Shown here in pieces: positions 14,538-64,000 of a stretch of 64,000 nucleotides of DNA; position 1 is the first letter of the stretch; each line of letters opens with the position of its first letter. Under the pieces are notes generated by a model. It made no database searches. It was not told the origin of the DNA and saw only the letters and a program-made list of their open reading frames with translations. This stretch comes from Candidatus Cloacimonadota bacterium (GTDB lineage Bacteria > Muiribacteriota > UBA6191), in assembly GCA_023954715.1 (NCBI GenBank), contig JAGSHD010000015.1, positions 59,772-123,771 of the forward strand, written 5' to 3'. Position numbers and translations under genes: made by a program.

Positions 14538-14565
14538 TTCAAAAAGACATAAATTTAGAATTTTA

Positions 14566-14696
14566 GTAACTATTCAGCTATAATTTTTCAATTTGCTTAC
14601 AAAGCTTGAATACATCTAGGTACATCAATAAAGCATAAACTGCGAAAAACTTGTATGCTGCTATCCTTTTATCAAAGAGACCACCCGAATAATTAC
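14566..14696 (+). mobile_element. MITE-like element copy 1 (131 bp, internally deleted)
   Basis: Starts GTAACTATTCAGCT, ends CGAATAATTAC (rc GTAATTATTCG); flanks GAATTTTA / AAATTTTA (7/8 match, TSD-like). Confidence 0.75.
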
Positions 14697-14928
14697 AAAT
14701 TTTATATCAATAGCTAACTATAGGTTTCAACTAAAAGTACATTCATTAAATATGCTTCTTTACCTTTTTTTACTTATAAATTATTAATTGAATTGCATAT
14801 AAATCGATTATGATGATATACTTGTCTAATTAGTCTGCAAAATAGACTGCACTATGGGGGTGTTTGCTTTGATTTTACTAAACGAAATCACTGCTAAACA
14901 ATAATATAATCTAACTTTCAGGGGTTAT

Positions 14929-25761: not shown

Positions 25762-25830
25762 CTTAAACCTATACCCGACAAATTAGTCAGAATGCTTGAA
25801 TAAAACCAAGTGGTATATTCCTAAAAATAT

Positions 25831-26056
25831 GTAACTATTCAATTATAATTTTTCAATTTCCTAGTAAAGATTGATTACACCTAGCTTTTTGATCATTATA
25901 ATATTTTATATTTACAGCTTTTGAAGTGCAGTGAACTACTCGAAAAAAGCTTTAAAAACAAAAGAGATAGTGAGCTAAACCGCATTAATAAAGTAAAACC
26001 TACGATAAATTTGTATGTTCCTCGCCTTTTATCGAAGAGACCAGCTCAATACTTAC
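25831..26056 (+). mobile_element. MITE-like element copy 2 (226 bp) between fliF and fliH
   Basis: Starts GTAACTATTCAATTATAATTTTTC, ends CTCAATACTTAC (rc GTAAGTATTGAG); flanks AAAAATAT / AAAAATAA; internal similarity to copy 3. Confidence 0.85.
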
Positions 26057-26109
26057 AAAAATAACAAGTACTTACTATTATATCTTATCAGATTAAATAA
26101 AACTCAATT

Positions 26110-41946: not shown

Positions 41947-41989
41947 TGTCTAAGTGTTTTACTCCCTTATATTTTTTGTTAAGATATTT

Positions 41990-42216
41990 GTAACTATTCA
42001 GCTATAATTTTTCAATTTATTCACAAAGGTTGATTACAAATAGGTTTTTGATCATTGTTATATTTTGCATTTACAGCTTTTGAAGTGTAGTGAACTACTC
42101 GAAAAAAGCTTTAGATACAAAAGATGATTATGAGCTAAACCGCATCATTAAAGAAAAAAATGCGAAAAAATTGTATGCTCTTCGCCTTTTATCGAAGAGA
42201 TAACCTGAATAATTAC
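41990..42216 (+). mobile_element. MITE-like element copy 3 (227 bp) with perfect 8-bp TSD AGATATTT
   Basis: GTAACTATTCAG.../...CTGAATAATTAC TIRs; AGATATTT immediately on both sides. Confidence 0.9.
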
Positions 42217-42302
42217 AGATATTTTTAATATAACAAATACGCTCTTACAATCATTCAACCATAGCAACGATATTTCAAGATCTAATTCTTAGGAGAGTTT
42301 CA

Positions 42303-61182: not shown

Positions 61183-62847
61183 CTAATCCGTCTTAAATTT
61201 ATTCAACTCTTCACGCAACTGTTCAGCAAATTCATTAATCGTAGTACTTGCTTTTACTATCTCATCTACTTCAAAAACATACTCTTTATTTATCTCATTA
61301 ACACTCTCAATTTGGGAAATCAATTTAAGAGTATTTTTAGCAACTGCCTCACTATTAGCAAAACTATCTTCAACTATTTGAGTGCTACTTGTCATGATGT
61401 TAGATGTGGATACAATCGCATCTTCTACATCTGATGATAAACTTGTCAATTTATTTATATTGTCTATGTTGTCATTCATTTCCACTGAAATAGCTAAAAT
61501 AGATTCGACAATATTACTAATGATTTCATCTATTTCTACTAAGCTACTTTGACTTCGATTCGCTAAGTTTTTCACCTCTTCTGATACTACGGCAAATCCT
61601 AAGCCATGTCTTCCTGCTCTTGCTGCTTCAATTGCTGCATTTAAAGCCAATAAATTAGTCTGATGAGCAATCGAACTAATTACTGCTAGAACACTTTTAA
61701 CTTGCTCTGTATCTCCGGATAGCTTATTTAATTTTTTTGAAAATTCTAATTCTAGTTTTGCATTTGATTGAACCCCCTTAGCCAAATCCAACACGTTAGA
61801 TTTTGCCATATCAAGAGTTTGATTTGCACTAAAGATATTATCTCGTGCTTGTTGTGATGTGACCACTAAGTCTTCAAGAGTCTCTTGAATCACTTCAGCT
61901 TCTTGACTTACATTAACTAAAGTTGAGATACTTTGATCCACTCCCCTTTCAATAATACCAGCCGTATTCACTAGTGATGAAGCAATTTCTGTATTTTTAA
62001 AGCTAGAATCCTTAACATCTATAATAGTGTGTTGGACCTTCTCGATAAACAAGTTAACTTCATGACTTGCTTTGCCAATTTCATCTGTACTATTAACAGG
62101 TAATCTGGTAGTCAAATCTCCTTCACTGGATGCCAATACATTTGAGGTTTCTTCTAAAGTATGAATTGGGTTCAATACTATTTTTTTTATCAGAACTAAC
62201 AATACTCCACAAAGTACACCACCTATAATAAAAATTACTAATAAATTGTATATACCAATTTCTTTAATTTTTTCAAACTTTTCTTGGAGCGGAATATAAA
62301 TATTTAATGATCCTAATAATTTATGATCAGAAACCGGAATAGAATGACATTCTGCACAACCGGGATGAGCGTCACTATATAGAGGAATTGAACGACGATA
62401 CATATTATCCGTAACATCTTCTGTAAAAGTTTTTCCTTTTAAGAAGTCTCGTAATGACTCCATTTCAAAGCTTGTTTCAGCCTTGGTTGCAATACCACCA
62501 AAAGACCTTACTTTTAATAGTTTTTTATCGGTAACTAACCTGATTCGGGTCTTATCCTTACCAAAGTCATGAATAATGGCTGAATCAACAGCAATAATCG
62601 TTCTTATCCAATCATCGTGCACTTCTTTTTTCTCAAGTTTAGTTTTTGCGGCGTTAAATTCTTTATGAAACTTGACGGTAGAAACAACAAACATTTGTAC
62701 CGATCGACCAATCAAATCTGCGGCACTAGCTTTGACATCGTTCATCATATTATTTTGTAAACTATAACTAAAAAAGAAGGCTATAACTACTAGCCCAATT
62801 ATTCCAGTTGCTGTAAGTAGTAAAAAAATTTTCTTAGAGATATTCAT
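61183..62847 (-). CDS. Methyl-accepting chemotaxis protein with CxxCH (c-heme-type) periplasmic sensor
   Basis: Sensor '[32 protein letters not shown]'; HAMP; signalling tip '[45 protein letters not shown]'. Confidence 0.93.
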
Positions 62848-63113: not shown

Positions 63114-63147
63114 CAAAAACCCCCTCAAACGTGAGTTTGAGGGGGTT
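63114..63147 (-). terminator. Rho-independent terminator of minus-strand ncRNA candidate
   Basis: Minus strand: CCCCCTCAAAC-TCAC-GTTTGAGGGGG-TTTTTGCG (11-bp stem). Confidence 0.9.
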
Positions 63148-64000
63148 ATAAAAGCTTTGAAAGCTGTCCCGAAATCAAGTCGGAGCCCTAACGTTTTTCC
63201 ATCCTTTAGAGTTTAAGGATTACTCCTTAGCTTGCTCTTATGCGATTCAGATGATTTATAGAGTTTTTAGTTTTAACAATATCTAGTTACCTAAATCCCA
63301 ATCTGTGGTTTGTACCACTCTTTGGTCTTTTTGCTAAAGCCTACTCACAAGTTACCCTGCTCGTCCTCTTTTAACCTTACTGGTCACTCTAGAGTATAAC
63401 CCCTAAAAGCTGTCTCCTGATTTCCCAGAATCTCTCGTCTCCGAAAGTCTCTTTCTTTAACCAATCCTCAAAGTATTGCTACTCTTTTAGATCAAGCCTC
63501 CGTCTCAGACAGCATCACTACTCCCTAAAACCAATCTGTCGATTATGCCCTTGTTGCCAAGTACATAAGGCTGGTCATCAGTCTACGCTGACCCTTTCTT
63601 TGGGCTCATGCCGGTTTCCCTCTAATCTGGCGTTTCAGGTGATCTTGCTTGTCTTGCGACTCCTAATCTCACTTTCGAGACCATTATCTACTTTCACAGT
63701 AGCCTATGGCTTTTCCAAATCAGATCCTTTGACATACAGATCTCGGTCTCCCGCTATCCTTAAGTCCAGTTCCGACTTCAACCTTTACTCTTGAAGACTT
63801 CCCCTTACTAAGCTGTGTCCTTTGTTTCCAAAGAATAATTCCGATCTTGCCTTCTCTCAAGACTTCATCGGTTTCGATCTTAGTAAATCCCTAGCGCTTA
63901 AAAGGTTACCCTTCTAACTAAGCTGGTTTCTCCTACAATTGTTTTGGCTTTTCTTGAATTACTGTTGTGATCTTAGTCTACTTCTAAACTGTACCTTCAT
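63114..64000 (-). ncRNA. Candidate large structured ncRNA (5' end beyond window)
   Basis: About 885 nt without a coding ORF on the minus strand, elevated GC versus flanks, many small hairpins incl. GNRA-type loops, ends at intrinsic terminator. Confidence 0.6.

Follow-up and report, generated by a model that had tools for sequence, protein, structure and literature searches.

At the right edge of the window (the whole 64,000-nucleotide stretch of DNA analysed here, positions 59772-123771 of contig 13 in a 38-contig MAG) we identified a giant structured RNA not described before, of which the window contains the 3' 886 nt of one copy. Ribosomal RNAs aside, it ranks with the largest structured RNAs of bacteria. 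Comparison of its copies shows that this RNA exists and folds, and it almost certainly represents a genuine, hitherto unknown class of structured ncRNA gene. Overall, the data are probably best explained by giant structured RNA genes of a new class, which stand alone and whose product acts as an assembled structural RNA. Very few structured RNAs of more than 500 nt are known from bacteria, and all of them have proved surprising. The initial annotation had predicted a giant structured ncRNA with its own terminator on the minus strand at this edge, representing either a new class or a divergent member of a large ncRNA class. The RNA, its strand and its terminator are borne out, whereas the copy in the window turned out to be incomplete; the proposed class is supported by pervasive covariation, conserved GNRA loops and lack of coding capacity. 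Beyond that prediction, the RNA belongs to a dispersed multicopy family of ~1.07 kb, which evolves concertedly and is found in one genus only in the collections searched.

The window copy and its fold

The features relevant to the RNA are the following:

63115..64000, minus strand: RNA gene copy G0C13, 3' 886 nt (82-88% identity to complete copies of the same genome, and covariation)
63114..63147, minus strand: intrinsic terminator, with an 11-bp stem CCCCCTCAAAC-TCAC-GTTTGAGGGGG at 63120-63145, then a T run
63168..63185, minus strand: hairpin CUCCGA-CUUGAUU-UCGGG (helix 53), with the 7-nt loop CUUGAUU invariant in 16/16 copies
63590..63604, minus strand: hairpin CCC-AAAGAAA-GGG (helix 31), with the loop AAAGAAA invariant in 11/11 copies
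63490..63608, minus strand: central domain, basis of covariance model R1 (119 nt)
63569..63779, minus strand: central multibranched domain, basis of covariance model R2 (211 nt)
63777..63951, minus strand: multibranched domain, basis of covariance model R3 (174 nt)
61183..62847, minus strand: methyl-accepting chemotaxis protein gene (HAMP + MCPsignal), the downstream neighbour, lying past the terminator and judged to be outside the RNA gene

The contig terminates at window position 64000, most likely because the RNA element is repeated in the genome. The window copy has a total length of ~1,065 nt, of which the 5' ~180 nt, along with the upstream element, fall past the contig end and are seen only in other copies; homologous copies provided the full length (~1.07 kb), the extension past 64000 that had been recommended. 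The RNA region has a GC content of 41.6% versus 35.2% for the whole window, and a recount of the line 63601-63660 agrees with the 32/60 GC reported earlier.

A MAFFT alignment built from sequence only (A3), with 20 copies or fragments from two species, yielded after pruning an RNAalifold consensus of 318 pairs in 54 helices, with 98.0% of the cells paired across the 318 bp. It contains 92 two-sided compensatory pairs as against 43.3 +/- 4.2 in shuffles (0/500 reach the observed value) and 13-21 when the partner was slid by 1-3 columns, although this last control is by itself optimistic, the consensus structure having been derived from the same copies. Column-shuffled alignments are free of this bias because they were refolded from scratch, and they gave 21.6 +/- 2.7 two-sided pairs versus 94 in the real alignment, and an RNAalifold energy of -222 +/- 6 versus -436 kcal/mol (z about -33). 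At the level of the aligned sequences, the 92 compensatory pairs show that selection acts on the RNA fold across the copies, and the proposed check for homologues and covariation thus came out in favour of the RNA. The sense strand has an RNAalifold energy of -436 as against -323 for the antisense, G-U cells number 511/3,934 in the minus-strand (sense) reading, and single-sequence folding gives z = -5.6 for the minus versus -2.4 for the plus strand; on these folding models, the RNA strand is the minus strand of the window.

Nine to ten hairpins bear GNRA loops, whose letters vary between copies (GCAA, GUAA, GUGA, GCGA and so on) with the GNRA pattern being kept. Several such tetraloops had been pointed out in the initial annotation, and all eight of the stem-loops that it named were recovered on the minus strand, for example AAGGA-GTAA-TCCTT at 63215-63228 and CTTTG-GAAA-CAAAG at 63820-63833. 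The two invariant loops listed above are both unpaired, and the 5' and 3' regions are joined by long-range helices that close the fold. As 96-99% of the pairs are kept in every copy with at least 100 scorable pairs, the copies look functional, with no obvious pseudogenes among them. A search for pseudoknots and loop-loop interactions in the 20 rows from two species, a sample of limited resolution for tertiary or intermolecular contacts, gave two short helices without covariation versus one in a parallel control, and no intermolecular covariation was found. Two copies of the second species (L074 and L075) have a common 40-nt insert in the apical loop of helix 36 (alignment A3 columns 675-718), which holds a short hairpin of its own (TCCATTAACATGGA) and takes the place of a GNRA loop.

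Every complete copy is closed by an intrinsic terminator in the same position, corresponding to the 11-bp terminator already predicted in the window; its stem (helix 54) covaries, with two-sided changes at 6/16 pairs. Upstream of the RNA there is an A/T-rich tract and a conserved block of the form TTGAC(T/A)...TGGCACTAT, beyond which similarity ceases (nine copies); three copies of the second species have TTGCAT...TGGCATATT in place of the TTGAC form. Scanned for the sigma-70 consensus, the upstream region gave no site, so that this block is a putative promoter by its conservation in the nine copies. No conserved ORF was found across the copies: no frame is open, each sense frame contains 16-38 stops, the longest open stretches differ between copies, and the indels between them are mostly of 1-2 nt and mostly not in threes. 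Within 63115-64000 the longest minus-strand ORF has 46 aa, in line with the earlier observation that none reaches 60 aa. A decayed protein gene or an assembly artefact has a negligible probability. Both genomes are MAGs and many copies lie at contig ends, as an artefact might produce, but two different MAGs also have complete copies in the interior of contigs, the longest of 738 kb, flanked on either side by host genes; these contig-internal copies, along with the lack of any open or conserved frame, refute both ideas.

Copy number, evolution and distribution

The last 901 bases of the window match 13 places in their own genome (the window copy included) with 83-100% identity. This source genome (G000) contains three complete copies (contigs 4, 6 and 11), the near-complete window copy and contig-end fragments, together presenting ten distinct 3' ends, and a congener (G001), the MAG 'Candidatus Cloacimonadota bacterium NORP72' (NVVD01), contains six complete copies and at least 6 further 3' ends. 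Counted by 3' ends there are at least 10 copies in the source genome and at least 12 in NORP72, numbers which are minima because both genomes are incomplete MAGs (completeness 86% and 95%, the 95% genome having 9% contamination). NORP72 is assigned to the GTDB phylum UBP17 and derives from a sample from a depth of ~4,484 m at the Mid-Atlantic Ridge (PMC9426571). With the first conserved helix and the T run of the terminator taken as limits, the complete copies are 1,065-1,112 nt long, with 74-93% identity among them; complete and near-complete copies number ten. One complete copy of 1,065 nt occupies L009 10004-11068.

On contig 11 of the source genome and contig 31 of NORP72 the RNA is situated directly upstream of the same orthologous gene, and three further loci share the same gene neighborhood in both species, with intervening genes gained or rearranged. 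At all four of these loci the matching copies are 64-77% identical between the species, and paralogues within a genome are 88-99% identical, the closest paralogue of each of these copies reaching 92-99%. In the 5' half the copies group by species, and in the 3' half some types span the species. As read from the aligned copies, this is the pattern that concerted evolution through gene conversion and mosaic exchange leaves, as in rRNA genes. Other copies are not at matching places in the two species, which points to copy turnover too; an orthologous empty site marking an insertion boundary was sought and none was usable, because the neighbouring gene content differs as well.

Covariance models R1 and R2 detected the RNA in 2/43 genomes of the phylum, and R3 in the same two only of 40 searched, weak chance matches aside. 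These two genomes constitute one genus, and two further genomes of the same family lack the RNA with all three models. An exact conserved 19-mer was found in NORP72 only among 85,488 GTDB r220 species genomes, there was no match in phage records (50,697) and plasmids (72,556), and IMG/VR viral contigs had no real match, these being searches with exact patterns and blastn, which overlook divergent relatives. In the collections searched the RNA is restricted to one genus. Two sets of candidates were rejected as chance matches, namely nine IMG/VR contigs with an 18-mer of the 5' domain, which falls within an apparent protein gene of related viruses and is extended neither by model R2 nor by BLAST, and a weak R3 match in a further genome (G016, E = 0.03), which sits inside a 524-aa ORF.

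Relationship to known large RNAs and possible role

None of the 4,227 Rfam families matched the window at gathering score, and no large-RNA, rRNA, RNase P or intron family matched a complete copy up to E = 10; given this lack of matches, the RNA is not recognisable as OLE, ROOL, GOLLD or HEARO. The matches seen at loose thresholds were discarded, being short, low-scoring, mostly in the terminator region and all below gathering. Tests for rRNA, RNase P and tmRNA (Rfam or ARAGORN) and for group II introns (domain V and D1-D4 models) were likewise negative, as the initial annotation had anticipated, and neither a match to an ordinary family, nor an absence of covariation, nor a decayed protein gene, the outcomes it had named as speaking against its proposal, was encountered.

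The RNA is of the same kind as OLE, ROOL, GOLLD and HEARO in being very large (>500 nt), ornate, with a covariation-supported structure, non-coding and provided with its own terminator, but differs from these in size, chromosomal multicopy state and concerted evolution. GOLLD is often >800 nt, ornate and non-coding, combines a variable 5' region with better conserved parts, and forms an RNA-only nanocage (PMC12286853). Our RNA is similarly very large, ornate and non-coding, with a variable 5' region and better conserved parts elsewhere, the cage being a feature of GOLLD. Unlike GOLLD, which is found in phages and prophages and often near tRNA islands, it is chromosomal and multicopy, has no phage, plasmid or viral match, and has no tRNA in nine flanking loci. 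ROOL can match 16S rRNA in abundance and is without a known protein partner (PMC12286853). The RNA described here is likewise long, ornate and stand-alone, with no protein partner known; unlike ROOL (659 nt in the cryo-EM study, and carried by phages and prophages near tRNA islands) it shows no such carriage, and it has no Rfam match. OLE is an RNA of ~600 nt that occurs mostly in Bacillota (PMC12054373); the two RNAs share a chromosomal location in free-living bacteria, large size and a conserved ornate fold, but OLE works with OLE-associated proteins, whereas the present RNA has ten or more copies per genome and no Rfam match. As in rRNA gene families, these are multicopy structured RNA genes homogenised within a genome by concerted evolution; unlike rRNA genes they match no rRNA model and are stand-alone genes with their own terminators, found in one genus.

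OLE, ROOL and GOLLD self-assemble without protein. Such self-assembling ornate RNAs are the best analogue because the present RNA bears some ten GNRA loops that could dock, and pairing between its 5' and 3' parts closes the fold; a high gene dosage with homogenised copies would be expected if many interchangeable subunits were needed, as with rRNA. We propose that each copy may be transcribed independently at a high level, with the transcript itself as the product, needed as many interchangeable molecules. The RNA would then fold, and A-minor/GNRA contacts would serve to assemble it into a large particle, either a homo-oligomer or one that includes protein, for which OLE, ROOL and GOLLD provide the precedent of oligomeric assembly by large ornate bacterial RNAs (PMC12286853). 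By this analogy, there is an even chance that the RNA acts as an assembled, abundant structural particle. That such a particle is RNA-only is a tentative idea, as an ornate fold does not imply RNA-only assembly given that OLE acts with proteins. It is similarly speculative that a chromosomal rRNA-like multigene family supplies this uncultured deep-sea genus with an abundant RNA-only particle, whether a cage or another homo-oligomer, as one of its house-keeping components.

The main rival is the RNA of a ribonucleoprotein, such as a ribosome-associated or stress/dormancy particle, which like OLE would need one or more host proteins. OLE functions in a ribonucleoprotein and has been linked to the ribosomal protein bS21/RpsU, pull-downs showed GOLLD bound to ribosomes (PMC12286853), and the invariant unpaired loops CUUGAUU and AAAGAAA are as might be expected of binding sites; however, no protein gene consistently adjoins the copies in the flanks examined, and we consider this reading possible but doubtful. 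Returning to the preferred assembled structural RNA, a class of ~1.07 kb without Rfam relatives combines rRNA-like gene dosage with concerted evolution, which points less to a phage gene than to a component that the cell makes in bulk. If the RNA-only version is true, then, leaving aside phages, prophages and OLE of the Bacillota type, this would to our knowledge be the first such RNA, and one of the largest. With a covariation-tested structure and ten complete or near-complete variants, the RNA can be taken directly into in vitro transcription, mass photometry and cryo-EM, and it offers a direct test of whether cages are a common form among the large RNAs found in nature, a question raised in PMC12286853.

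Genomic surroundings and mobile elements

The genes neighbouring the copies are unrelated, coding for a chemotaxis receptor, an EamA transporter, a GST, RtcR, an AlkB-like oxygenase, a glycosyltransferase, a response regulator and others. At several loci, including the chemotaxis receptor gene of the window, a same-strand gene begins 25-270 bp past the terminator, which might suggest a family of long cis-regulatory leaders for downstream genes. This is very improbable: the downstream genes are unrelated and several are convergent, a strong terminator ends the RNA in all copies, and a length of 1 kb far exceeds that of known leaders. One copy adjoins an rtcR gene in both species (L012 1-4918, L079 1-6714; RtcR was confirmed by Pfam), and the two genes after it may be an rtcBA RNA-repair operon; the location of these possible RNA-repair genes beside a giant RNA is probably a coincidence. 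On contig 3 of the source genome (L017 1168-6000) an open frame of >1,600 aa, consisting of ~225-bp (75-aa) repeats and continuing past the end of L017, is situated near an RNA 3' end.

The dispersed multicopy state and the large GNRA-rich fold would also befit a large ribozyme or retroelement RNA, for example a degenerate group II-like one spreading in the genome, and a group II intron indeed lies directly behind one copy. Nevertheless this origin is improbable: the RNA itself has no Rfam intron match and ends in its own terminator, the nearest flanking genes that were tested include no reverse transcriptase, the identity between complete copies of one genome is mostly 74-93%, unlike that of recent near-identical insertions, one locus adjoins the same orthologous gene in both species, and the intron is a separate element. 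This intron (RF02001, RF01998; L011 8994-9266, minus strand, contig 11 of the source genome) is positioned just downstream of the terminator of the copy, and at the orthologous locus of NORP72 the space is too small to accommodate it. The intron resembles a group IIC-type insertion behind the terminator, separate from the RNA; group IIC introns are known to abut terminators.

A non-autonomous, MITE-like mobile DNA element, the internal structure of which would be incidental, could account for the dispersal and for the copies at non-matching positions in the two species. It is strongly disfavoured by the selection on the fold seen in the compensatory pairs, and highly unlikely also in that the ends are a promoter-like block and a terminator, with no terminal inverted repeats apparent, and in that the MITE-like repeats present in this genome are of a quite different appearance.

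The window also contains another repeat, intergenic and dispersed, which is probably a MITE-like element, at 14561-14698, 25821-26058 and 41987-42217. It is ~140-240 nt long; its ends (GTAACTATTCAG ... CTGAATAATTACAA) are imperfectly inverted copies of each other, the part between them varies, and it also occurs in L014 (1601-1770, 7684-7923 and 9502-9639), L011 (11185-11320), L012 (9599-9799), L016 (3893-4086) and L009 (18936-18997).
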